Assembly (NCBI GenBank): GCA_016208305.1
Contig: JACQYI010000009.1
Location: 310,001 to 374,000 of the forward strand
Direction of reading: 5' to 3'
Source of the DNA: Oscillatoriophycideae cyanobacterium NC_groundwater_1537_Pr4_S-0.65um_50_18
GTDB taxonomy: Bacteria > Cyanobacteriota > Cyanobacteriia > Elainellales > Elainellaceae
Length of the DNA: 64,000 bases
The notes under the pieces are model-generated. The model ran no database searches. It saw only the letters and a list, made by a program, of their open reading frames with translations, and had not been told where the DNA came from. Both the position numbers and the translations under genes were made by a program. This document shows, piece after piece, positions 4,254 through 20,604 of the stretch. How positions within the stretch are numbered: position 1 is the first letter of the stretch; each line of letters begins with the position of its first letter.

Positions 4254-4507
4254 AGCCTGATGCCCCGATCGCTGCTGCTTGCTGAGTACTTAATGAGTAT
4301 AGAAGAAGCCTGTCGCTCTGTGGTTGTAACGAGCAAGAGATCTCCCCTCTCAGCGCTACGCCTGATCTCATCAAGGCTCCTGACAAAATTAAAATCCAGC
4401 ATCTTTTTTGAGAGCATGTAGCTTTGAGAGCATGTAACTTTGAGAGCATATGGCTCTGCCGCACGCTCTCAAAAAACTTCTTCAAGCTATTTCTGTGAAG
4501 ATCCTTA
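4254..4507. other. Spacer upstream of the glycosyltransferase gene, with direct repeats
   Basis: No credible gene. The segment contains a 16-base triple repeat (4407-4454) ending in a hairpin, then the sequence TATTTCTGTGAAGATCCTTA that recurs in similar form near 40850, both times just beyond the 3' end of a minus-strand gene. The MITE at 4508 is inserted at the end of this motif. Confidence 0.5.
4407..4473. repeat. Triple 16-base direct repeat plus closing inverted arm
   Basis: Three units TTTGAGAGCATGTAGC, TTTGAGAGCATGTAAC and TTTGAGAGCATATGGC occupy 4407-4454. The last unit's TTTGAGAGC pairs with GCTCTCAAA at 4465-4473, giving a 9-bp stem, so each unit repeats one arm of the hairpin. On the minus strand this lies downstream of por and could end its transcript. 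Confidence 0.75.
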
Positions 4508-4717
4508 GAGGATGTTTGAAAAGTCCAACTATGGGTAGCAAAACGTTTCAGATCCCCCTAAATCCCCGCGCTATCGCGCTGCTGCGCTAGTAAAAAGGGG
4601 GACTTTGAATTCATTTCCCCCCTTTTTCTAGACGCGAAGCGGCTTCCCGCAGGGTAGGGGGGCAGGGGGGATCAACAGGTGCATAAAATCACAGCCGACC
4701 ACTTTTCAAACATCCTC
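4508..4717. mobile_element. MITE, copy 1 (210 bp, TTA target duplication)
   Basis: A non-coding 210-bp element with perfect 17-bp terminal inverted repeats (GAGGATGTTTGAAAAGT) and flanking TTA direct repeats at 4505-4507 and 4718-4720. A near-identical copy (six substitutions and one indel) lies at 13165-13375. Nested inside are GATCCCCC/GGGGGATC arms and an AAAAAGGGGG/CCCCCTTTTT stem. There is no transposase, so it must be moved in trans; the 3-bp TTA duplication suits IS5-type elements, but that assignment is an inference. The right-hand TTA is the stop codon (TAA on the minus strand) of por. Confidence 0.88.
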
Positions 4718-6755
<2,038 letters not shown>

Positions 6756-6843: not shown

Positions 6844-8079
6844 GTGAAACATCTTTATTTTTTGAGAAACTTAGGGCAGCTCCGATTCAGTGGTCAGTTG
6901 ATACGCAAGGACTCAGCTAATCGGCAATGGAGATTTTACCTGTCACAAGGCTCTATGCTTTATGCGACGGGAGGCGAACATCCTGTCCGGCGCTGGCGTA
7001 GGAATTTGACCTTGCATGGCATTCACAAAATAAGTCATTCCAATGGTCATATAGCGAGTCATGCAAACGGTTATGAAACTGCACAAGAAGATGCATGGAT
7101 TTCCGATCTCAATGATCTAAGCGCTGAAGATTGTGCGATCGGTTGGGAATATGCACTTCTAAATTTGTGGGTTTCCCGACAAGAAATTACTGAGGAGCAA
7201 GCCGCTAAAATTGCGCTATCCAACATTGTTGAAGTGCTGTTTGAAATTGCTCAGGCTGGAGTCCTCACCGATGAGGTGCATCAAGGTAGCTTCCCAGCCA
7301 TACGACTGCGCCTCATTAAGCTAGAAAAGGTGACAGCAAGAACACAGGTGCGCTGGCAAACCTGGCAAGACGCTAAGCTAGGCAGCTACTCTCCTCATCG
7401 TGCCCCCGTGATTCGGCAAGCTGAGCAGATTCAAAACCAGACTTCTGCGGCGTTTTATCAAAATCTGGTAACGCTGTTGAATGGTCAGCGGACGCTGCAA
7501 GATCTGTCTGTGCAAATGCGGCGAGATGTCACAGAAGTTACCTTGTCTCTTTTGCCTTTTATTCAACTGGGTTGGATAGAGCTTGTTCAAATTCCTGACT
7601 TGCCGACTCCCCGCTATCCGCTTCTAGCCTTGCTGCCTCAATCGGCAAAAGCCCCCGTTCGGCAGAAGCTCATTGCCTGCGTGGATGACAGCTTTTTGGT
7701 GCGTCACATGATGGAAAAGCTGCTGACTTCTGCGGGCTATCAGTTCATGGGAGTGGATGATGCTGTGCGATCGATCGGTGTTTTGCTATCTCGCAAGCCA
7801 GATTTAATTTTTCTCGATCTCATGATGCCTAATGCCAACGGGCATGAAATTTGTGAGCAGTTGCGCAAACTCTCCCTGTTTCGGCATACGCCGATCGTGA
7901 TTTTGACCAGCAGTGATGGCTATGCCAATCGTCTGCGATCGAATTTTGTGGGTGCGTCAGATTTCCTCAGCAAACCTCTAGAGGCAGAAGCTGTCCTCAG
8001 CGTTATTCGTAAGCATCTAGAGCCACAGGTAGAGCCGCAGGCAAGCCTTTCTCTAGCTGCTGATTCCCAGTTTATCTAA
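6844..8079 (+). CDS. PatA/PixG-type response regulator, first gene of a taxis cluster
   Basis: The 411-residue protein has an N-terminal PatA-type domain (residues about 1-160; DUF4388-like start with FYLSQGSMLYATGG), a middle winged-helix-like part (about 200-255), and a C-terminal receiver domain (about 274-395) with acidic pocket DD at 281-282, phospho-acceptor Asp325 in FLDLMMPNANG and Lys in SKPLE. Proteins with this layout (PixG, PilG, TaxP1) are CheY-like outputs controlling type IV pili in cyanobacteria. It starts with GTG, chosen for AGGG seven bases upstream. It heads a same-strand cluster with CheY, CheW, receptor and CheA, which fixes the assignment. Confidence 0.87.
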   Translation: MKHLYFLRNLGQLRFSGQLIRKDSANRQWRFYLSQGSMLYATGGEHPVRRWRRNLTLHGIHKISHSNGHIASHANGYETAQEDAWISDLNDLSAEDCAIGWEYALLNLWVSRQEITEEQAAKIALSNIVEVLFEIAQAGVLTDEVHQGSFPAIRLRLIKLEKVTARTQVRWQTWQDAKLGSYSPHRAPVIRQAEQIQNQTSAAFYQNLVTLLNGQRTLQDLSVQMRRDVTEVTLSLLPFIQLGWIELVQIPDLPTPRYPLLALLPQSAKAPVRQKLIACVDDSFLVRHMMEKLLTSAGYQFMGVDDAVRSIGVLLSRKPDLIFLDLMMPNANGHEICEQLRKLSLFRHTPIVILTSSDGYANRLRSNFVGASDFLSKPLEAEAVLSVIRKHLEPQVEPQASLSLAADSQFI

Positions 8080-8111
8080 ATCTCTCGCTATTCATTCATA
8101 AGGTGACTGCC

Positions 8112-8477
8112 ATGGGTACAGTGCTCGTTGTTGAAGATTCATTGACGGATATGCAAATTCTGATTCACTGTCTGCAACAGGACGGTATTAATGTCTTAGT
8201 GGCTCAGAGTGGAGAAGAGGCGATGGCCACCGTAACCCGGCAAAAGCCTGATGCCGTCGTGCTAGACATCGTTCTCCCTGGCTGTAGTGGTTTTGAAGTG
8301 TGTCGCCAGCTCAAAGCTGAAGCGAACACCAGCAATATTCCTGTGGTGCTTTGTTCTACCAAGGGCAGCGAGATGGATAAATTTTGGGGCATGAAACAGG
8401 GCGCAGATGCCTATCTGTCTAAGCCTATCGATCAAGCAGAGCTAATTCGCACCATTAAAAATTTGATTAGAAATTAA
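8112..8477 (+). CDS. CheY-like single-domain response regulator (PixH type)
   Basis: About 121 residues form one receiver domain: VVEDS at the N-terminus, phospho-acceptor Asp in AVVLDIVLPGCSG, Thr/Ser-containing CSTKG and the conserved Lys of LSKPID. There is no output domain, so it acts by protein contact, probably with the pilus motor or as a phosphate sink. An in-frame GTG at 8103 is possible, but AAGG lies at proper distance from the ATG at 8112. It follows the PatA-like gene by 32 bases. In the pix and pil operons the same pair (PatA-type then CheY-type) precedes cheW. Confidence 0.88.
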   Translation: MGTVLVVEDSLTDMQILIHCLQQDGINVLVAQSGEEAMATVTRQKPDAVVLDIVLPGCSGFEVCRQLKAEANTSNIPVVLCSTKGSEMDKFWGMKQGADAYLSKPIDQAELIRTIKNLIRN

Positions 8478-8492
8478 GGCTAAAACCTCTCA

Positions 8493-8557
8493 CCTGAGTA
8501 AACAAGTCTGAGCAAACAAGCCTGAGCAAGCCTGAGCACGTCTGAGCCAATCCTGAG
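8493..8557. repeat. Degenerate 10-14 base tandem repeat in the cheY-cheW spacer
   Basis: The hexamer (C/T)CTGAG recurs six times at 8493, 8507, 8521, 8531, 8541 and 8552, within repeated AAGCCTGAGC-like units. It fills the spacer between the CheY and CheW genes. This looks like slippage-generated sequence; no regulatory role can be shown. Confidence 0.65.
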
Positions 8558-8572
8558 CCTAGAAAAGTCTCT

Positions 8573-9172
8573 ATGTCTGATTCTTTATCGATTCCAGAAC
8601 TCCAGTCATTACCTGCGTCCAATCTAGCTATACCCAGTGCTGCCCCGGATTCAATTCCGGCAGATACTGAACAATTTTTGCGGCTGCATCTGCTGAATAC
8701 GCCAGTTTTACTATCAGTGGTACAAATGGCCGAGGTGTTAACAATACCGATCGGTCAAATTATCCCTATTTCTCATATGCCTGCCTGGGTTATGGGGGTG
8801 CATAACTGGCGAGGAGAAGTGCTTTGGATGGTGGATTTAGGGCATCTGTGCGGGTTGTCTCCCTGGTATGAGCAGCCCTCTGTTTCAGCCCATGCAGCCG
8901 TTGTGTTGCAGGTTCGTGATCCCAAGTCTTCTGATGCTATAACTTCTGCTGCCTCGACCTCGACTCCCGCCTCTGCTAAAAAACAAACTTTGGGGATGGT
9001 CGTCAGTCAGGTTGGCGAAATGGAATGGTGCGATCCCCATCAAATTCAATCTCTGGCTCTTTCGTCGGCTACACCGGAGATTGCGCAATTTCTGCGCGGA
9101 TATTGGTGGAATGTGAACGGTGACATGCTGGCCGTACTAGATGGAGAAGCGATCGCTCAAGCAATGCCCTAG
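8573..9172 (+). CDS. CheW-like coupling protein (PixI type)
   Basis: CheW proteins bridge the receptor and the CheA kinase in the signalling array. The 199-residue product has the CheW fold from about residue 40: LHLLNTPVLLSVVQMAEVLTIP, then the typical HMPAWVMGVHNWRGEVLWMVDLGHLCGL segment split over residues 65-95, and GMVVSQVGEMEWC near 140. It is longer than a minimal CheW because of a 40-residue N-terminal extension rich in Pro/Ser and an Ala/Ser/Thr-rich insertion at about 118-138. It lies between cheY and the receptor gene. Confidence 0.85.
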   Translation: MSDSLSIPELQSLPASNLAIPSAAPDSIPADTEQFLRLHLLNTPVLLSVVQMAEVLTIPIGQIIPISHMPAWVMGVHNWRGEVLWMVDLGHLCGLSPWYEQPSVSAHAAVVLQVRDPKSSDAITSAASTSTPASAKKQTLGMVVSQVGEMEWCDPHQIQSLALSSATPEIAQFLRGYWWNVNGDMLAVLDGEAIAQAMP

Positions 9173-9187
9173 GGTTTGGTCAAGGAG

Positions 9188-9216
9188 GCTTTAAAGAGTT
9201 TTAAACCCTTTAAAGC
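9188..9216 (+). terminator. Hairpin between cheW and the receptor gene
   Basis: GCTTTAAAG (9188-9196) pairs with CTTTAAAGC (9208-9216) around an 11-base loop, followed by TTCTTT. It lies 15 bases after the CheW stop. It could attenuate read-through into the receptor gene; the downstream T-run is weak. Confidence 0.45.
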
Positions 9217-9385
9217 TTCTTTCCAATAGAAACGGACAGGACTCTAGTCCAGAACCCTAGTCAGCCATTGAGTAACTAATCCAGAGAGCGCAACAGCAGC
9301 AGAACTGAGGGGCATTCACCTGTCCTCAGGCACCTCTTGCGAGATCAACTTTTTACTATTTTTAGTTTTTGATGAGGATTGTATT

Positions 9386-12253
9386 GTGACTCAGATGTTC
9401 CCCAAAGCTAATCTCGAAGATGCCGCCCAAGAGCCTTCTCTAGACAGTCCTGAATTTGAGGAGATGAGATGGGAAGAAACCTCTGCATCTTCCCATCCGG
9501 CTCAGCTCTCTATCTTACAAAAGGTTGGGCGAGCGCGATCGTCCAATTCAGTGCGGTGGTGGAGAGATCTTAGCGTTAGGACAAAAGCATCTGCGATCGC
9601 CTTCTTAATTGGAACCGCTCCAGTTTTGGCGATTGGAGGAATTTCTTATCAGTTTGCCAACCAATCGATCACGGCTCAAGTTGAACAATTTGAGAAAGAG
9701 AAGGCGGCTGAGATGCAAAACAAAGTCAATATATTCATGCGCGATCGCTTCAGCGATATCCGGATGATGGCAAGCCTCGATATCCTTACTGATCCTGAAA
9801 TTAGAGCAAGGGTTTCAGATCAAGACATAGTGGAAGCCTTGAAGCGCATTGAGCAAAGCTACGGTATCTACAACAGCATCGCCCTTTTAGATATGAAGGG
9901 AAATACCATTGCTCAAACCGATGAGGGACAACGCCCTAACCTGTTCAATCGCCGTTTCTTTCAGGCAGCGCTCAAGGCCAATGGTGCTATTTTAGGTCAG
10001 CCCGAAATTGGCAAAACCTCAGGAACTTTCAATATCTTCTCAGCTTCTACCGTCAGAGACAAAAAGACGGGCGAACCGATCGCAATCATTCGAGCCAGAA
10101 TGCCCGTATCGGCGCTGGAAGATCTAGTTAAAGGCTATGAATCAACTGGAACGCAATACTATCTGATTGATGGAGATGGCAAAGCCTTTATTGGGCCTGA
10201 AGGCGTTTATGTCAAACCCGTTTTTACCACGGGTGAAACGGCCAATGTGGATACCGACTTAATCGCGATCGATCCCAAAGATATTTTCCCAGGACTTGCA
10301 GAGATCGAGAAGTCAATGCAGGCCAGTGCAGTGGTTTCTCGCAATCTCAGGACAAACCAAAACCAGCTAATTGCCTATGCGCCTCCCGTCCAAATGGCAG
10401 GTGTCCCTGATCTGGGTTGGCGTACCTTGGCCGCCGTAGACTCAACGGTAGCCTTTGCTCCCCAGCGACAGATTCTGTTGGTTTTGATTTTGGGGGTAGG
10501 GGTTGCGACGTTGCTGATTGGGGCAATCTCCTCAGCCATTGCTAACCGGGCAACTCGTCCTATCTTAAGTGCGGCTGATGCCGTGGAAAGAATTGGACAA
10601 GGGGAACTTGAAACCCGCCTAGACATTTCAGGAACAGACGAAATTGCCTCTCTGGGGTCAAACATCAACAGCATGGCCTCCCGACTTCAGAGCGCTCTGA
10701 TGGCACAACTGTTTGAAGTGCAGCAAGAACGTCTGCTAACAGCCGCAAAGGGTTCAGGGGTGGTAGAAGCGGGGGATATCCAGGGTATTCTTGACCAAGC
10801 GGTCGAGGGTGCGCGAGAGATCATCGGTCTCGATCGCGTTGTCATCTATCGTTTCAATACAGAGCAGCAATCCGGAATTGTCTCTGAGTCTGTGGAGACA
10901 GGCTGGACGAGCGCTCTGCTAAACAACGTTGATGATGCCTGTATTCCTGAAAACCTGCTAGAGCAATATCGACAAGGGCGCGTCGTCGTTGCCGAAGATG
11001 TCTTTGCGGCCGATCTGCATCCTGATCATTTACAGATGCTCAGAAGTCTGGAAGTGAAGTCCAATCTGGTTGTCCCTATCTTTGGGGGCGGTCAGCTGTT
11101 TGGGTTGCTGATTGGGCATTCCTGCGCGGCTCAGCGCCGTTGGCAAGAGTCTGAAATCAACTTCTTAAAGCGTCTAGGCAATGAGCTAGGGCTGTCTATT
11201 TACCGAGTTGAGCTGCTGCAGCAAACCACTGAACTGGCCGCAGAACAGCGACAGTTGAAAGAAGATTTGCAAAGACGAGCCTTAGAACTGTTGATGGAGG
11301 TTGACCCGATTAGCCGAGGCGACTTGACGATTCGGGCAAAGGTAACGGTGGATGAAATTGGTACGATCGCTGACTCGTATAACGCCACGGTCAGCAGCCT
11401 GCGAAAGATTGTCTTGCAGGTGCAAGAAGCGAGCAACCAGGTGACGACCACCGCCAGTACCAACGAAACCTCAGTTCAAGCCCTCTCAAACGATGCGTTG
11501 CAGCAGGCTGAGGCGATTTCTGCTGCTCTAGAAATTGTTAAAGACATGGCTCAGACTGCGCAATTGGTGGCTGCCAACGCAGAACAAGCAGAGATTGCGG
11601 TACAACAAGCCGCTCAAACGGTGGAAGAGGGAGATGCCGTCATGAACCGCACCGTCGAGGGGATTCAGATCATCCGCTCTACGGTTGCTGATACGGCCAA
11701 GAAGGTAAAACACCTAGGGGAATCTTCTCAAAAGATTTCCAAGGTGGTCGAGGTGATTGGAGCGTTTGCGGCTCAAACCAACATGCTGGCGCTCAATGCT
11801 TCTATTGAAGCCTCTCGTGCTGGAGAAGAAGGCCGAGGCTTTGCGGTGGTTGCAAACGAAGTCCGATCGCTAGCGCGCCAGTCCGCAGAAGCGACCGAAG
11901 AAATTCGGAAGCTGGTGAGCAACATTCAAGCCGAAACCAGTGAAGTGGTCATGGCTATGGAGTCAGGGATTGAGCAGGTGGTCACCGGAACACAGCTTGT
12001 GAATGAAACGCGGCAAAGTTTGACCAAAATGACTGCTGCCAGTGCCCACATTAGTGAATTGGTGGAAGCGATCGCTCAGGCCACCGTCACACAGTCACAA
12101 GCTTCTGAAACGGTGACTCAAACGATGAAAGATGTAGCAGCCAGTGCCAACAAAACATCACAAGATGCCAGCCAAGTTTCGTCTTCTTTTGAAGAGCTGA
12201 AAAAGGTGGCACAACTGCTACAAGAGGGGGTGGATCAATTTAAGGTGAGCTAA
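9386..12253 (+). CDS. Methyl-accepting chemotaxis receptor, dCACHE-HAMP-GAF-MCP
   Basis: The 955-residue receptor has a 65-residue cytoplasmic N-terminus, a membrane helix at about 68-90, a periplasmic double-CACHE domain (about 95-360), a second helix (about 363-385), HAMP (about 385-440), a GAF domain (about 460-610) and an MCP signalling domain (about 690-950) with the hairpin tip [20 protein letters not shown]. The GAF is of the kind found in PixJ/cyanobacteriochromes, but at the usual Cys-His chromophore site it reads Asp-His (residues 547-548), so covalent bilin binding is doubtful. The CACHE domain has NRRFF at 188-192, reminiscent of the R-x-W-Y ligand motif. A GTG start with GAGG eight bases upstream is used. 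Confidence 0.9.
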
Positions 12254-12270
12254 AACGGCTTCACCCACTG

Positions 12271-12335
12271 GATCGCCAGGAATGATCGCCAGCAATTACC
12301 GCCAGCGTTATCGCTAGCGATCGCCAGCGATTGTC
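12271..12335. repeat. Degenerate repeat around CGCCAG units
   Basis: The spacer after the receptor gene consists largely of reiterated (AT)CGCCAGCRATT-like units, about five imperfect copies, partly overlapping a GCGATCGC octamer. It resembles the other small repeats in this cluster's spacers but with unrelated sequence. Confidence 0.55.
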
Positions 12336-12365
12336 GAGAGAATCCTTTATACAGGTGCAACAGCT

Positions 12366-13121
12366 ATGTTTGATCTAAGAAACTTTGCTAACAAAGACAT
12401 GAACGACTGTGCAATTACACTCCGCAATATGGATGCAAATGCACACAGCATGGAAGAAGTAGCAGAACGCATGGTTCGCTATCTATATGAGAATCTGATT
12501 GATCCTCATACAGGTGAACCCGCTTGCGCTCTTGTACGGTTTTTTAGAACCTATGCCTATCGACAACTCAATGAAGATCTCCAGGAGTCTGCCCGCCAGA
12601 TTATAGGAGGAAAAGCGATCGCCTTGGGCACCAAATGCCTAACGCTATTGGCTACTGCTGGTGATGAACCCCACTGGAACTCAAGACGTGAATCGAGCGG
12701 CCACCGAGCTATTCCACTTGTGGATAAAAACTTTGTGGAACGTGCCCCCATGATTTCCCAGCTAATCCAGCAATTTGGATTGGAGATTTCAACGGTTTTG
12801 GAACCCAATCCAGAACTGATGGTGGATTTACAACAGACCAACTTCAACGTCTTCTATGTTCCTGAAGCGTTAGGAAGCGCCCATATCCCAGCGCAAAAAG
12901 ATTTTGTCATCCCTTACGCCATTAAATCGGTCGTGGGATTTGGAGGCATGTTGCCTTCGGGAAATCTTTTCGCAATCATTCTATTTGTCAAAATTCCCAT
13001 CTCTCAAAGTACGGCAGATCTGTTCAAATGGGTGTCTTCTTACGCCCGCATCGCTACTGCCACCTTTGATAGAAGGACTGTGTTTACCAATGTCGCGGGC
13101 ACGGCAGTAGCGCACCCCTAA
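12366..13121 (+). CDS. Uncharacterised cyanobacterial sensory-domain protein in the taxis cluster
   Basis: The 251-residue protein is soluble, with no signal peptide or membrane helix. Features are CALVRFFRTYAYRQLN near residue 58, an LTLLATAGDEPHWNSR segment near 95, RAPMISQLIQQFGLEIS near 130, FNVFYVPEALGSAHIPAQKD near 165 and GFGGMLPSGNLFAIILF near 195. From memory, segments like these occur as an N-terminal input domain of cyanobacterial histidine kinases or cyclases, where they look like a GAF-related ligand domain; I cannot name the family. Here it stands alone between receptor and CheA genes, 112 bases after the receptor, so it is probably an accessory sensor or adaptor of the same pathway. 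Confidence 0.7.
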   Translation: MFDLRNFANKDMNDCAITLRNMDANAHSMEEVAERMVRYLYENLIDPHTGEPACALVRFFRTYAYRQLNEDLQESARQIIGGKAIALGTKCLTLLATAGDEPHWNSRRESSGHRAIPLVDKNFVERAPMISQLIQQFGLEISTVLEPNPELMVDLQQTNFNVFYVPEALGSAHIPAQKDFVIPYAIKSVVGFGGMLPSGNLFAIILFVKIPISQSTADLFKWVSSYARIATATFDRRTVFTNVAGTAVAHP

Positions 13122-13164
13122 TGGCTTAGCCGCTTAAGGGGTACGGCAGCAACAGTGTCCCTTA

Positions 13165-13375
13165 GAGGGTGTTTGAAAAGTTCCAACTATGGGTAGCAAA
13201 ACGTTTCAGATCCCCCTAAATCCCCGCGCTATCGCGCCGCTGCGCTAGTAAAAAGGGGAACTTTGAATTCATTTCTCCCCTTTTTCTAGACTCGAAGCGG
13301 CTTCCCGCAGGGTAGGGGGGCAGGGGAGATCAACAGGTGCATAAAATCACAGCCGACCACTTTTCAAACATCCTC
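13165..13375. mobile_element. MITE, copy 2 (211 bp, TTA target duplication)
   Basis: This element is about 97% identical to the MITE at 4508-4717 and in the same orientation. TTA duplications flank it at 13162-13164 and 13376-13378. The left terminal repeat has one mismatch (GAGGGTG instead of GAGGATG). In the internal stem the tenth pair is A-T (AAAAAGGGGA with TCCCCTTTTT) where copy 1 has G-C, a paired change. It lies inside the taxis cluster, between the unknown protein and the permease gene, and could separate transcription units. Confidence 0.88.
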
Positions 13376-13428
13376 TTAGCAGCATTCTCAATTCACTGCT
13401 TCAAAAAGCATTCTTTACAGGTTGAAAT

Positions 13429-14829
13429 ATGGCAACAAATTCGCAACTCAAAGCAAATTCTAGGGTGGCGGTTCTCCGTCCAGATTGTCTCTCTTTTCCA
13501 GAGATTTTGGCGCAATCGATCGCGACGACTGCGCCCACATTGACAGCCGCCCTTAATGCTCCATTGGTTTTTGCCAGTGCGGGCAACGGAACCTGGTTTG
13601 CTTATGTTTTGGCGACCATTGGGCTGATTTTTGTAGGTCTTAATATGAATGTCTTTGCGCGCCGCTCTGCTGCACCCGGAGCGCTCTACCTCTATGTTGC
13701 TAAGGGGTTAGGCGCAACGACTGGCATTGTCTGCGGATGGGCGCTCACTCTGGCTTATATTGCCGTAGTCGTAACGGAAATAGGTGGCTTTGCCCACTAC
13801 TTCCATCTTGTCTTGGCTGAACTGGGGGTACAGCTTCCCTCTATCCTGCTCTATGCCATCTGCGTTGGCATAGCCTGGTACTATGCCTTTACCGATATTC
13901 AGCTCTCAGCAATTTTGATGCTGGTGCTAGAGCTAATCTCAGTCGGAATTGTCGTCGTTTTGGGAGTACTGGTACTTAAACACAATGGTTTTCCCATTGA
14001 CACCGATCAACTCACCCTCAAAGATGTCACCCCCAACGGCATCAGTCTGGGGATGGTGATTGCGGTTCTCAGCTACGTAGGGTTTGAAAGCTCAGCCACC
14101 TTGGGAAATGAGGCCAAGTCTCCTACTCGGTTCATTCCTCCGTCTTTTCTCTGGAGTGTTGGACTGTGTGGTATCTTCTTTATTTTTGTTGCCTATGTAG
14201 AAGTTGTGGGTTTCCGTGGTTATGCAACTCCGTTAAACGAAAGTGGTAATCCTCTGGATGTTTTGGCGGCGCTTGCTGGCGCAGATGCCCTAGGTTTAAT
14301 CTTGGGCGTGGGCATATCCATGAGTTTTTTGGGCGGTATGCTTGCCAGCTTTAATGCAGGCGGACGTATCGTTTTTGCATTAGCTCGACACAGCTTTTTC
14401 CCTTCCCCGTTAGGCAAGGTTCACATTCACAACCAGACCCCCCACTTGGCGATCACCATCTGTGCGCTGATTACGTTCCTAATTGCCACTTCTATGTCGC
14501 TGTTTGGGGTAGCAGATCTACAGGTCTACAGCTATGCTGGAACGCTTTCAACCTACGGATTTTTGGCTTGCTATGTTCTTCTCTCGATCGCTGCTCCTGC
14601 CTACTTGGCTCGCTGTGGTCAACTGCGGCAACACCATGTCGTAATCTCTGTCGTGGGTGTTGCGTTTATGTGTATTCCCATCGTGGGCAGTTTCTTCCCA
14701 GCTCCGCCGTTCCCCTACAATGTCTTCCCTTATTTGTTCTTGCTATATCTGGCCGGAGGCGCAGCCCTGTTCGTGATGTTCCGCAAACGATCGCCCCAAA
14801 TTGTTGAGCGCATAGAGCGTGATTATTAA
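13429..14829 (+). CDS. APC-superfamily amino-acid permease
   Basis: The 466-residue integral membrane protein has about 12 hydrophobic segments and family landmarks: SIATTAPTLTA in helix 1, SAAPGALYLYVAKGLG, the SYVGFESSATLGNEAK segment of helix 6, and GRIVFALARHSFFP. APC permeases take up amino acids or polyamines by proton or sodium symport, or exchange; the substrate cannot be read from the sequence. It is embedded between the receptor-side genes and the CheA gene of the taxis cluster, 54 bases after a MITE. This placement suggests that uptake and tactic response may share a ligand, or that the gene was inserted; base use looks like that of its neighbours. Confidence 0.85.
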   Translation: MATNSQLKANSRVAVLRPDCLSFPEILAQSIATTAPTLTAALNAPLVFASAGNGTWFAYVLATIGLIFVGLNMNVFARRSAAPGALYLYVAKGLGATTGIVCGWALTLAYIAVVVTEIGGFAHYFHLVLAELGVQLPSILLYAICVGIAWYYAFTDIQLSAILMLVLELISVGIVVVLGVLVLKHNGFPIDTDQLTLKDVTPNGISLGMVIAVLSYVGFESSATLGNEAKSPTRFIPPSFLWSVGLCGIFFIFVAYVEVVGFRGYATPLNESGNPLDVLAALAGADALGLILGVGISMSFLGGMLASFNAGGRIVFALARHSFFPSPLGKVHIHNQTPHLAITICALITFLIATSMSLFGVADLQVYSYAGTLSTYGFLACYVLLSIAAPAYLARCGQLRQHHVVISVVGVAFMCIPIVGSFFPAPPFPYNVFPYLFLLYLAGGAALFVMFRKRSPQIVERIERDY

Positions 14830-14830
14830 G

Positions 14831-14860
14831 GCAAAGACGATCGAAGCAAAGACGATCGAG
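14831..14860. repeat. 15-base tandem duplication after the permease gene
   Basis: GCAAAGACGATCGAA (14831-14845) is followed directly by GCAAAGACGATCGAG (14846-14860). It is the first of two unrelated tandem duplications in this spacer. Confidence 0.75.
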
Positions 14861-14912
14861 GCAGATAGAGCGTTAAGCCAATCAACCTCGATCGGTCTTG
14901 TTAAATAGTCTC

Positions 14913-14938
14913 GTTAAGCAGTTTAGTTAAGCAGTCCA
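14913..14938. repeat. 13-base tandem duplication before the cheA gene
   Basis: GTTAAGCAGTTTA (14913-14925) is followed by GTTAAGCAGTCCA (14926-14938), with two more degenerate copies (TCAAGCAATTTA, CTCAGCAG) up to about 14961. It lies in the leader of the CheA gene. Confidence 0.7.
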
Positions 14939-14984
14939 GCGTCAAGCAATTTAGCTCAGCAGAATCGGCTAAGGGATTCAATCT

Positions 14985-17900
14985 ATGGCAATTAACCCCG
15001 ACATTCGCGACCAGGCTTACCAGTTTTTTAGTGCCGAAGCCCCTGAATTATTGCAAATCATTGAAACAGGGTTGCTCAGTCTCAGCCAAGGTCGCAGCAC
15101 TGCCGAAGTTCATAACCTGATGCGGGCTGCCCACTCGCTCAAAGGTGGAGCCGCCAGTGTCGGATTGGAGGCGATCGCCACCCTTTCTCACCGTCTGGAG
15201 AACATTTTTAAGGCGCTTTACAGCGATACCTTAGAGATCGACATTCACCTAGAGAGCCAGCTACTGCGTGCCTACGACTGCTTACGTCTGCCTCTGATGG
15301 AGCAAATCACGACCGGAGAGTTAGATTCAGCGGCAGTATTGGCGATCGCTGATCCGATTCTTACCCAAATTGAGCAGTATTGTGGCGAGGCGCTGTTGCA
15401 AACCGAGAGCTATATTCCTAGCTCGTCTGACATGGGCGTCAGCATGCTATCGTCCATTTTAGAAATTGATGTAGTGCAAGGGCTAGAACATTTGGCAACG
15501 GTAATAACCCACCCGCAAGACTACGAAGTTGCAGGAGAGTTACGGGCACAGGTGGAAGTCTTTGCTGGATTTGCCGAAATGCTAAACCTACCCAGCCTCA
15601 GCACTGTTGCCGATATGGTTTGCAGTGCCTTAGACGCCCATCCCGATCGCGCCTTAGAAATTACTCAACTCGCGCTGGCTGATTTTGAACGCAGCAGGCA
15701 AATATCTTTAGAAGATCGCACCCAATTAATTCAGCCCTCAGCCACGCTTTTAGCCTTGGCTCATGGGTCGAGTGCTCATGGAGCAGATGCTCAGGAGACA
15801 TTAACTCAAGAGACATTAACTCAAGAGATATTAACTCAAGAGCCAGTAGCTCAAGAGCCAGCAGCTTATGCTTACGCTTTAGATGGGGCGATCGATTTAC
15901 CAGAGCCGTCACTCGACGCTTTATCGGCAATTCCTCTATTGGAAAACGTGTTTGGCGATGCGTTTAATGATTCGCTTGTCGATTCATTGGGTGATGATTT
16001 TGGTGATGACTTTGATGACGACTTTGATGACGACTTTGAAGACACGCTCGATGATGATTTTGATGCCGTTACAGAGGCTGAATCTGCAAATGTTTTTGAA
16101 ACCGTAATTTCTGCACCCGAACTGGCTAAGAGTGAGCAAGAAGCGGCTGATTTAATGAATCGATCAGAATCGATCGCCCTATCAGCAACAGAAAATTTGC
16201 ATGCAGATAGCATCACCGTCGAGCCTGAGCTTGAACCCTTTGAGGGTCTAGAGACGAATGTTGCCATCCCAAGTCTTACAGAAGCGATCGATGCAGAATG
16301 GGTGGCAAACGGTACGGTAGGCTCAGACAAGCCAGATCTAGACAATGTACCTCTAGAGATCCTACCGGAGGCTAGTGGGGCGATCCAGCTTACCCGCTCA
16401 GCCGAACTCTATTACCCTGCGGGCAAAGTGCCGTTGGGTCGCCGGATGCAGCCCCCTGCCCCTCTGACGGTTCGCGTTGACTCAGAGCGGCTAGAGCGGA
16501 TGAATAACCTGACGGGCGAACTCATGATCGATCGGGAGGGGTTGGCGTTGCAGAATGGGCAGCTTCAAAGCGTGCTGCGGGAGCTGCGCAATCGATTCTC
16601 TAGGTTTCAAGTCACGGTTAGCCAATTGCAGGAGCGATCGGATCAAATCCTGTCTGCCTCTAGAAATCGAGATTTTGATGCGAGAACAGCGGCAGCCCCC
16701 AACGGAATGGCAGAGAAAGAAGAAGGATCTACATTTACCGCAGGTGCTACGCTAACGGCTCCTGCTGCTGATCCAGGCTGGGTAGAATTCGATACCTTAG
16801 AAATGGATCGGTATGGATCACTCTATTCACAGTTTCAAGAACTCCTTGAGGACATTGTTCAGTTAGAAGAGTCGATTGATGATGTGACTCTATTCACTCG
16901 ACAATCCAGCCAAATTTTAGATCGACAGCAACAAACGCTATCTCATCTCCAAAATGAGTTTAGATGGGCAAGAATGTTGCCGATTGGAGAAGTACTCAAC
17001 CGCTTCCCTAGAGTCTTGAGAGATCTATCTACTACCTACCATAAGCCCGTAAATCTGACGCTAACGGGAACAGATATTCTCATTGACAAAGCCATTTTAG
17101 AAAAGCTGTATGACCCGTTGCTGCACTTGATCCGCAATGCGTTTGATCATGGCATCGAACCCAGCAGTACCCGACTTCAGCAAGGTAAACCAGAGCAAGG
17201 GCAGTTAGAAATTCGGGCTTATTACAAAGGCAACCAAACGATCATTGAAGTTAAAGACGATGGGCGTGGGCTTAACTTAGATCGGATTCGCAGCAGAGCA
17301 TTTGAATTGGGCTGGCTATCTGCGGATCAGCTGATTTTTACACCTCCAGAGCAGCTATTTGAGTTCATCTTTGAACCCGGATTTTCAACTGCGGCACAGG
17401 TAAGCGAACTGTCAGGACGAGGCGTTGGCCTAGATGTGGTGCGATCGCAACTCTATGCCGTCAAAGGAAGCACCACCGTTACGTCTACCCCCGGTCAAGG
17501 AACCACCTTTACGCTGCACTTGCCGCTCACGCTCACGATCGCCAAGCTGATCATTTGTTTGATAGGCACGAGTGCCGTGGCAATATCGGCTGATACGGTA
17601 GAAGAGGTTTTAACCCCTCAAGCCAATCAAGTCAAACAGTCTGGGTCACAGCGTTTTCTCTATTGGCGCGAGAAAATCATCCCAGCCTATCGCTTAGTTG
17701 ACCTATTGGACTACAACTGTCCCTTGCCCGAAACGATTCTGGGCAAATCTCTCACAACGCTTTCTTCCCCTGAAAATTGGGAACCGCCGATGCTGATTCT
17801 ACGCCAAGAACAGCAGGTCTTTGCGCTAGAGGTCGATCGCTTGGTCAATGAGCAAGAGCTGATTGTCAAACCCTTTGGCAAAGCCATTACGCCGCCGCGC

Positions 17901-18410
17901 TATGCTTACGGCTGCACCATTTTAGGAGATGGGAGTCTTGTCCCTGTTATTGATGGATCGGCACTGCTCTCCCTCGGAGAAAGTTCCAGCTCGGCTCACG
18001 TTCCTACCGCTCGCAAGCCAGCCCCGATCAAAACTCAAATCGCCACTATTCTGGTTGTAGATGATGCCATTACCCTGCGGCAAACTCTAGCGCTTTCGTT
18101 AGAGCGGGCTGGGTTCCGGGTTTTGCAGGCGCGAGATGGCTGGGAGGCGATCGATCAGTTGCGTCACGCAGCCGTAAAGCTCGTCATTTGCGATGTCGAA
18201 ATGCCCAACATGAACGGCTTTGAATTCTTGAGCCATCGCCGTCAAGATCCTCAGCTTTCGGAGATTCCTGTGGTGATGCTCACCTCTCGCAGCAACAACA
18301 AACATCGCTGGTTAGCGCTCAAGCTCGGAGCCGTAGATTACTTCAGCAAGCCCTACCTGGAACAAGAATTTTTGGCAGCGATCGAAAAAATCATTCATCC
18401 AGATATCTAA
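14985..18410 (+). CDS. CheA-type hybrid histidine kinase (PixL type)
   Basis: The 1141-residue kinase has an N-terminal Hpt domain (residues 1-125) with phospho-acceptor His50 in AAHSLKGGA, a second alpha-helical region to about 245, and a long acidic linker (about 265-420) with TQE repeats and DDFDDDFDDDF. Then follow the dimerisation and ATPase domains (about 490-860; N-box RNAFDHGIE, DDGRGL, GRGVGLDVV), a CheW-like domain (about 860-1000), and a C-terminal receiver (about 1020-1140; VVDDA, Asp in VICDVEMPNMNG, SKPY). This is the cyanobacterial CheA-REC architecture of PixL/PilL-type taxis systems. AAGGG nine bases upstream supports the ATG. It closes the cluster started at 6844. Confidence 0.93.
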   Translation: MAINPDIRDQAYQFFSAEAPELLQIIETGLLSLSQGRSTAEVHNLMRAAHSLKGGAASVGLEAIATLSHRLENIFKALYSDTLEIDIHLESQLLRAYDCLRLPLMEQITTGELDSAAVLAIADPILTQIEQYCGEALLQTESYIPSSSDMGVSMLSSILEIDVVQGLEHLATVITHPQDYEVAGELRAQVEVFAGFAEMLNLPSLSTVADMVCSALDAHPDRALEITQLALADFERSRQISLEDRTQLIQPSATLLALAHGSSAHGADAQETLTQETLTQEILTQEPVAQEPAAYAYALDGAIDLPEPSLDALSAIPLLENVFGDAFNDSLVDSLGDDFGDDFDDDFDDDFEDTLDDDFDAVTEAESANVFETVISAPELAKSEQEAADLMNRSESIALSATENLHADSITVEPELEPFEGLETNVAIPSLTEAIDAEWVANGTVGSDKPDLDNVPLEILPEASGAIQLTRSAELYYPAGKVPLGRRMQPPAPLTVRVDSERLERMNNLTGELMIDREGLALQNGQLQSVLRELRNRFSRFQVTVSQLQERSDQILSASRNRDFDARTAAAPNGMAEKEEGSTFTAGATLTAPAADPGWVEFDTLEMDRYGSLYSQFQELLEDIVQLEESIDDVTLFTRQSSQILDRQQQTLSHLQNEFRWARMLPIGEVLNRFPRVLRDLSTTYHKPVNLTLTGTDILIDKAILEKLYDPLLHLIRNAFDHGIEPSSTRLQQGKPEQGQLEIRAYYKGNQTIIEVKDDGRGLNLDRIRSRAFELGWLSADQLIFTPPEQLFEFIFEPGFSTAAQVSELSGRGVGLDVVRSQLYAVKGSTTVTSTPGQGTTFTLHLPLTLTIAKLIICLIGTSAVAISADTVEEVLTPQANQVKQSGSQRFLYWREKIIPAYRLVDLLDYNCPLPETILGKSLTTLSSPENWEPPMLILRQEQQVFALEVDRLVNEQELIVKPFGKAITPPRYAYGCTILGDGSLVPVIDGSALLSLGESSSSAHVPTARKPAPIKTQIATILVVDDAITLRQTLALSLERAGFRVLQARDGWEAIDQLRHAAVKLVICDVEMPNMNGFEFLSHRRQDPQLSEIPVVMLTSRSNNKHRWLALKLGAVDYFSKPYLEQEFLAAIEKIIHPDI

Positions 18411-18887: not shown

Positions 18888-19454
18888 ATGGCAGACAACG
18901 GAAGAGCTACAATGGTTGCCCCCGCACCGACAGCAAATAGTTTGGTCGCACCCGCCAGCATCCCTGTTTCAGGTTCCCAAGCGCCTGTACTCTATTCAGG
19001 AAGCGAAACCTATTCTTACAATATCTTAGGCCCAAGCTCGTTTACGCTTACCCACCTAGATTTTGCAGGATCGAGTGTTATACCCGCAGCGCTCTCACAG
19101 TCCAAATATATTGTTGCCCTAGATGAAGAAGTTACGTTCAGCGTCGTGGTCACTTTTGACCAAAGTCCGCTGACTGCACTACTGATGTGTCTGGGCACAG
19201 ATATTAACATTGATTTTAGCTGTGAAGGATTTGGCAAAGGAGCCACCGAACAGGATGTGGAAGTGACCTACCTGACCACTGAAGGTCAGTTTGCTTACTT
19301 GATCACCGCTAAGACCACGCCTAGAAAAGCAGGTCTGACACCGGGCTTCTATGAACTAGCGGCTACAGCAACCATTGGGCCTGTGACTCACAAGTGTGGT
19401 CAACACATTTTGGGATACGGCTATATCGGTGAAGTTCGCTTCCAGGTGTACTAA
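18888..19454 (+). CDS. Protein of unknown function, probably beta-rich
   Basis: I do not recognise the 188-residue product. The first 45 residues are Ala/Pro/Ser-rich and low in complexity; the rest is rich in alternating Val, Thr and hydrophobic residues, as in a beta-sandwich, with VALDEEVTFSVVVTFDQSP near 85, three Cys (LMCLG, FSCEG, HKCGQ) and a C-terminal GYGYIGEVRFQVY. No signal peptide or membrane helix is clear. GAGG eight bases before the ATG, normal codon use and a length of 567 bases support a real gene. It follows the taxis cluster by 477 bases and precedes a PAS-LuxR regulator; no functional link is evident. Confidence 0.7.
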   Translation: MADNGRATMVAPAPTANSLVAPASIPVSGSQAPVLYSGSETYSYNILGPSSFTLTHLDFAGSSVIPAALSQSKYIVALDEEVTFSVVVTFDQSPLTALLMCLGTDINIDFSCEGFGKGATEQDVEVTYLTTEGQFAYLITAKTTPRKAGLTPGFYELAATATIGPVTHKCGQHILGYGYIGEVRFQVY

Positions 19455-20013: not shown

Positions 20014-20604
20014 ATGAAAAGCGCTATTAACCGTCCACAAGCTTTAACGCCCCAGACTGGTCTATCTAAAGAACTCTTCTCTACAAATCAAGAACAATTT
20101 CTTTCCCTTAAAAAAGGAATTGAAGACTTGATTGATGGCATCTTGATTTTGACTGATCAAAAGAAAATACTCTACGTCAACGATAGTGCCCGCCGGATTT
20201 TGCAGCAGCTTAACCAATCTCAGTCCTCATTTGAGTTAGTGCCCGCAGAGATCTGGCATATCTGTCAGTCACTCATTCATAGCCGCAATTTATTTCCTGA
20301 GCAGCAGTGGATGATTGAATCTGAAGTGTTTACAGATAGCTCTGCCTTTCATATTCGAGTGAGATGGCTCAAGCTCACCTCTATAGAACACCCCTGCTTG
20401 TTACTCATCATAGAAGACCGTTATCAAGCGATTAGAAATATGGCGATCGAAGAGTCAGAAAGATATGGGCTAACCCCCCGCGAACAAGAGGTCTGGATAT
20501 TGCATCGCTCAGGTTTGACCTATAAGCAAATTGCGGTGCAGCTTTGTATTACGCCCAATACGGTCAAAAAGCACATGAAAAGTGTTTACGTTAAGCAAAA
20601 ATAA
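20014..20604 (+). CDS. PAS-LuxR transcriptional regulator
   Basis: The 196-residue protein has a PAS-like sensor domain (residues about 30-135; LIDGILILTDQKKILYVND and a later VRWLKL...LLLIIEDR strand) and a LuxR-type helix-turn-helix (about 148-192; LTPREQEVWILHRSGLTYK and NTVKKHMKSVY). It has no receiver domain, so it is controlled by a ligand or partner sensed by the PAS domain. The C-terminus stops at KQK, just after the recognition helix, a little shorter than most LuxR domains. The 30-bp palindrome upstream may be its operator. It appears monocistronic; targets are unknown. Confidence 0.85.
   Translation: MKSAINRPQALTPQTGLSKELFSTNQEQFLSLKKGIEDLIDGILILTDQKKILYVNDSARRILQQLNQSQSSFELVPAEIWHICQSLIHSRNLFPEQQWMIESEVFTDSSAFHIRVRWLKLTSIEHPCLLLIIEDRYQAIRNMAIEESERYGLTPREQEVWILHRSGLTYKQIAVQLCITPNTVKKHMKSVYVKQK

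Follow-up and report, generated by a model that had tools for sequence, protein, structure and literature searches.

A pix/tax1-type taxis operon with a conserved APC permease gene between a probable light and chemical receptor and CheA in cyanobacteria

The stretch of DNA analysed here, in the following called the window, comprises 64,000 nucleotides from Oscillatoriophycideae cyanobacterium NC_groundwater_1537_Pr4_S-0.65um_50_18 (contig JACQYI010000009.1, positions 310,001 to 374,000). Between window positions 6844 and 18410, seven open reading frames follow each other on the plus strand in the order PATAN-CheY, CheY, CheW, receptor, P5, APC permease, and CheA-REC, with intergenic gaps of 23, 95, 213, 112, 307, and 155 bp. 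The features of the locus are:

6844-8079, plus strand: PatA/PixG-like response regulator with a PATAN-like N-terminus and a C-terminal REC domain (Pfam Response_reg, 8.1e-22, aa 277-388)
8103-8477, plus strand: CheY/PixH-like single-domain response regulator (Response_reg, 1.2e-26)
8573-9172, plus strand: CheW/PixI-like adaptor (CheW, 1.5e-18)
9386-12253, plus strand: PixJ-like receptor of 955 aa, TM-dCACHE-TM-HAMP-GAF-MCP signalling (Pfam, profile match, AlphaFold model)
9650-10459, plus strand: periplasmic dCACHE domain of the receptor, about aa 89-358 (Pfam dCache_1 below cut-off, PctA profile match, AlphaFold model)
10775-11200, plus strand: GAF domain of the receptor, DXCIP cyanobacteriochrome type (Pfam, TePixJ match, motif)
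12366-13121, plus strand: P5, 251 aa, predicted soluble GAF-fold accessory protein (conserved family, low-confidence AlphaFold model)
13161-13380, no strand assigned: MITE-like element of high copy number, bounded by 21-nt inverted ends and located between P5 and the permease
13429-14829, plus strand: APC-superfamily permease of 466 aa (Pfam AA_permease_2), putatively amine-type by the genomic context of its relatives
14985-18410, plus strand: PixL-like CheA-REC hybrid kinase with Hpt, dimerisation, HATPase, CheW, and C-terminal REC domains (Pfam)

Two hallmarks of pix/tax1 systems are found together at this locus. PATAN-CheY, CheY, CheW, an MCP-type receptor, and CheA form a single cluster that reads in one direction, with the domains arranged as is canonical for pix, and the GAF domain of the receptor appears, from its similarity to TePixJ and its DXCIP motif, to be of the cyanobacteriochrome type. 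The cluster is almost certainly a taxis operon of this kind, and the best-supported reading of its role would be the steering of type-IV-pilus motility by a known kind of chassis. The catalytic residues are present (Hpt His50 of CheA and the REC aspartates), and DUF4388 at the N-terminus of the PatA-like protein scores slightly under the Pfam cut-off (22.9 bits). Directly downstream of cheA lies a 188-aa ORF (window 18888-19454) with no Pfam match and no counterpart in the Drouetiella locus L092; the gene that comes next there is a match to window 20014-20604.

The GAF domain of the receptor finds its best solved match in TePixJ (PDB 3vv4, E=1.6e-33). At the DXCF position it reads D517-A-C519-I-P521 (nt 10934-10948), and the position of the canonical Cys is taken by D547 (nt 11024-11026), followed by His548, so that both traits of the DXCIP lineage, D-X-C-I-P at the DXCF position and absence of the canonical Cys, are seen. 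In this lineage of cyanobacteriochromes, the chromophore is attached via the second Cys and the dark state is green-absorbing (PMC5578081; PMC6628166; Fushimi et al. 2016, as cited in both). A DXCIP motif without the canonical Cys recurs in all nine full-length permease-linked receptors; among permease-free receptors, DXCIP is found in L172-L176 and L182 and DXCFP in L184, and the motif is lost in L177-L179 and L185. A TePixJ-like GAF domain with this motif makes light a likely input, and we consider binding of a bilin rather likely. As far as can be judged from sequence, the receptor is probably a dual sensor that responds to light as well as to a chemical stimulus.

The arrangement of the genes is far from chance, with at least 11 genomes sharing it. 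The first search covered 40 relatives, in several of which homologues of the permease, CheA, the receptor, and P5 lie side by side. In a named survey of 80 permease loci, the permease stands between receptor and CheA in ten, and sampling 390 genomes across the class recovered the same linked loci plus one more (G313). The order receptor-(P5)-permease-CheA is thus kept in 11 cyanobacterial genomes, always on the same strand and in the same slot; in the twelfth, G313, receptor and permease are adjacent and the contig ends before CheA. With the window's genome included, 12 of the 390 carry the linkage, and these fall into six genera and two GTDB families. P5 accompanies the linked permease in Drouetiella hepatica, PMM_0036, Phormidium tenue FACHB-886, and Microcoleus sp. 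FACHB-1515 and is missing from Stenomitos rutilans, S. frigidus ULC18, PMM_0002, PMM_0085, Lyngbya sp. HA4199-MV5, and CRU_2_3, the last with frameshifts and stops in permease and CheA that are probably due to low coverage of the contig. The first-pass annotation had given the gene order and the single direction as they stand, with all seven ORFs on the plus strand, and the permease between receptor and CheA that it pointed out is shown by the synteny comparison not to be confined to this strain, which it had named as grounds for refutation: since the same slot is filled in 11 genomes, a strain-specific insertion is ruled out.

The interval between receptor and CheA is a variable, general cargo site, as its contents differ from one sister operon to the next: it may be empty (L172-L176, L178, L179, L188), contain P5 alone (L186, L187, where the receptor lacks a GAF domain of its own), the permease, or both, or be occupied by a second receptor gene with no permease (L177, L180). 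Because most sister operons do without the permease (L172-L176, L178, L179, L186-L188), it is not needed for the pathway. In a permease tree of 86 rows, the linked copies form two groups within one sub-family of 14 rows, 11 of which are linked; the unlinked rows are two copies from Phormidium tenue contig1 and one from RU_5_0. Linkage requires 2 label changes on this tree, a value as low as that in none of 500 shuffles, and the linked operons need 2-3 changes on the CheA+MCP tree. One gain with subsequent losses and two or three gains both fit this history.

Such variability in the slot (empty, P5, permease, or second receptor) is also what would be expected of a plain phototaxis operon, in which the receptor senses light, the dCACHE domain has a residual or structural sensor role, and the permease amounts to co-regulated uptake cargo under a motility-phase promoter and outside signalling. 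Sister operons, in which the chassis functions with no permease, agree with this explanation, as does the fast divergence of the dCACHE domain (24-65%) while the MCP signalling region (75-93%) and the DXCIP motif persist. However, most of the permease sub-family is devoted to this slot, in which it has been retained across six genera and two families, more than random cargo predicts, and the dCACHE fold is intact in the predicted structure; we therefore regard this explanation as possible but somewhat unlikely.

The permease itself has an intact APC core (AA_permease_2, 7.2e-28), and the TM6 motif G218-F219-E220 is, along with many other positions, invariant among ten permease homologues. It reaches no curated equivalog cut-off in NCBIfam and has only weak matches in the PDB, for which reason an assignment as an ordinary amino-acid permease by family was rejected and the substrate class was judged from genomic context instead. 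Among the nearest non-taxis permease loci, 15 out of 15 have an amine-related gene within 3.5 kb (counted were copper amine oxidase, HODM N-demethylase, and glutamine-synthetase (GS)-like ligase), as compared to 0 out of 61 in a distant clade. These genes are a copper primary-amine oxidase in L099 and L193, a HODM-type haem N-demethylase in L096 and L097, and a GS-like ligase in L098, L101-L103, L105, L107, L110, L116, L117, L119, and L183, in places joined by a PuuD-like hydrolase (L105), an aldehyde dehydrogenase (L101), or an omega-aminotransferase (L119, L107). Since the GS-like ligases next to these permeases do not reach the gamma-glutamylputrescine synthetase cut-off of NCBIfam, amine is to be read as a probable class and not as a named substrate. 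No such amine-related enzyme gene adjoins the taxis-linked permeases. Judged by the gene neighbourhoods of its closest relatives, the permease would, by a narrow preference, be assigned an amine or omega-amino compound as its substrate.

Some of these neighbourhoods deserve mention in their own right. In L096 (9965-14390) and L097, from Phormidium tenue FACHB-886 and RU_5_0, tandem permeases of the same sub-family flank the HODM-like gene, possibly forming a cyanobacterial dimethylamine-use locus. Around sister permeases, a recurrent cluster consists of PhyH dioxygenases, the APC permease, a GS-like ligase, a DUF6885 protein, and a GATase (L098, L101, L102, L105, L107, L119, L183), in places with an aldehyde dehydrogenase or omega-aminotransferase, and looks like an uncharacterised pathway for amine or amide utilisation. 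The distant clade, which is the largest one of the permease (Nostocales, Microcoleus, and others), adjoins a Cad-like/Cad-family transporter in 56 of its 61 loci (most of L109-L171), suggesting a role different from that of the amine-linked clades.

The periplasmic domain of the receptor remains under the Pfam cut-off for dCACHE (40.2 vs 45 bits). PctA is matched (E=1.2e-8) by a profile built from nine sequences of this region, and its ligand-binding domain is also the nearest structure to the AlphaFold model (mean pLDDT 82; TMt 0.79), as would be expected for any dCACHE_1 domain. The amino-acid motif of PctA consists of Y121, R126, W128, Y129, Y144, and D173, the last of which is conserved in both amino-acid and amine motifs (PMC10104139). 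The residues of the window receptor aligned to these six are P, R189, F191, F192, E207, and R238, meaning that the Asp that binds the amine of the ligand is replaced by Arg (nt 10097-10099). The dCACHE domain consequently lacks the residue set of dCache_1AA (PctA-type) and, with Arg238 at the position of PctD D235 (equivalent to PctA D173), also the terminal Asp of dCache_1AM; an Asp at this position was found in none of the linked receptors examined. The letters NRRFF are present at aa 188-192 (R189-R-F-F at nt 9950-9961). The pattern R-x-(Y/F)-F, however, occurs likewise in the permease-free receptors L172, L174, and L184 and is absent from the linked L095 and L121. Given the exchange of Asp for Arg, the loss of Y121 and Y144, and this distribution, NRRFF was rejected as an amino-acid motif. 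Nor does similarity of the dCACHE domain track permease linkage, the window's being closer to those of permease-free L184 (37%) and L174 (34%) than to those of linked L095 (24%), L100 (29%), and L121 (27%). Co-specialisation of receptor and permease via this domain was rejected on these grounds, and the dCACHE type, not being tied to the presence of the permease, argues against a shared ligand.

These results bear directly on the first-pass annotation, which had suggested a chemotaxis system for amino acids or amines that combines transport with sensing; on this reading, dCACHE domain and permease would recognise the same amino-acid-like ligand. Its dCACHE receptor gains support from the PctA profile and fold, although the GAF domain had been overlooked, and its 'amino acids or amines' survives in part, through the amine-type substrate that the relatives' genomic context suggests for the permease. 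The dCACHE amino-acid motif does not stand: the claimed resemblance of NRRFF to the amino-acid R-x-W-Y motif fails both in the PctA alignment and in comparison to permease-free receptors. A shared ligand could still draw on PctA, an amino-acid receptor, as the closest solved relative, on the conserved adjacency of the transporter, and on the alignment of R189 with PctA R126. Yet with Y121 replaced by P, Y144 by E207, and D173, a position common to amino-acid and amine motifs alike, by R238, and with R-x-(Y/F)-F distributed irrespective of the permease, we consider it improbable.

Across the 19 members of the conserved family to which P5 belongs, mean column identity is 66%. P5 finds no match in Pfam, NCBIfam, or PHROGs, and the PDB gave none worth noting. 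Its AlphaFold model, which is of low confidence (mean pLDDT 62), resembles GAF domains most closely, including several from cyanobacteriochromes and phytochromes, and several stand-alone copies of the family adjoin histidine kinases, mostly with a PAS domain (L191, L198, L205-L209). Judging by the predicted fold, P5 is most likely a soluble signalling partner of the GAF type, and the family may serve cyanobacterial sensors more generally in this capacity. Between P5 and the permease, the MITE-like element (220 nt) has 55 matches in the window's genome; a second copy at window 4504-4721 is 97% identical to it. The P5-permease interval measures 307 bp in the window and 59-136 bp in relatives, which points to a recent insertion. 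In the window strain, the element could affect expression of the permease and may separate it from the upstream promoter.

Some bacterial taxis responses need transporters, for example, PcaK and TfdK. That the permease is likewise a transceptor, whose transport state the receptor, P5, or CheA would sense and feed directly into the taxis signal, nevertheless appears most improbable despite this precedent and its conserved position between receptor and CheA, as it has no soluble extension or docking domain, no contact is visible in its sequence, and sister operons exist without it.

On balance, we thus lean towards a dual-sensor operon of the pix/tax1 type with accessory genes in the slot between receptor and CheA. 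In such an operon, the periplasmic dCACHE domain would bind a small molecule, and the cytoplasmic DXCIP-type GAF domain would bind a bilin through Cys519 and report green light. Both inputs, light and solute, would be relayed by HAMP, the MCP hairpin, and CheW to CheA, and CheA would phosphorylate CheY and PATAN-CheY, thereby biasing pilus activity. The embedded permease would be co-expressed with the operon and import an amine or amine-like nitrogen compound, so that uptake would be switched on together with movement, while P5 as a soluble GAF-fold protein might act as an additional signalling input or modulator. The amine-type permease was probably inherited with the taxis operon and is probably expressed with it, as the gene neighbourhoods suggest, and a coupling of transport to sensing is plausible in view of the conserved gene order. 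A functional tie of the permease to the taxis output, beyond co-expression, is a tentative proposal that we hold to be less likely than not. A light-gated nitrogen-foraging unit, in which the receptor combines a green-light signal with that of a periplasmic solute, the amine permease is a transceptor with the receptor, P5, or CheA reading its transport state, and the filament moves to where light and amine nitrogen coincide, is an unlikely extension of it. If uptake and steering are coupled, the operon would exemplify a phototaxis pathway that incorporates nutrient transport. In any case, a conserved transporter inside a light-receptor operon offers a concrete handle, as permease substrate, receptor ligand, and bilin can each be addressed with single purified proteins. 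Our literature search for work linking cyanobacterial chemotaxis to amino-acid permeases or polyamines found nothing relevant.

Several known systems invite comparison. With PctA-type dCACHE receptors (dCache_1AA), the window receptor shares the predicted fold (TMt 0.79) and the equivalent of R126 (R189), but it lacks those of Y121, Y144, and D173. Puu-like gene sets for putrescine or amines combine an APC permease with enzymes comparable to those beside the nearest non-taxis homologues of our permease, whereas the taxis-linked permeases have no such adjoining enzyme and the relatives' GS-like ligases stay under the curated cut-off. Relative to that of TePixJ, a DXCF cyanobacteriochrome, the GAF domain retains two residues of the DXCF motif (Asp and Cys) and the His that follows the canonical Cys position, but has Asp547 in place of the canonical Cys and Ile-Pro in place of the DXCF Phe; with the DXCIP cyanobacteriochromes, compared by sequence alone, it shares D-X-C-I-P and the absence of the canonical Cys. 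The receptors of tax2 and tax3, the stimuli of which are described as unknown (PMC5812497), have no cyanobacteriochrome-type GAF domain, unlike PixJ1 and the window receptor. The closest likeness is to tax1/pix of Synechocystis (PixG-PixH-PixI-PixJ1-PixL), the components of which are reviewed in PMC5812497, and to ptx of Nostoc, which share with the window operon PATAN-CheY, CheY, CheW, an MCP-type receptor with a cyanobacteriochrome GAF domain, and CheA (PMC5812497). In contrast to these, the window receptor adds a periplasmic dCACHE domain and has a single GAF domain of the DXCIP type instead of two with the canonical Cys, and P5 and the permease lie between receptor and CheA. The chassis itself is already known, and the permease, with or without P5, is an addition to it.
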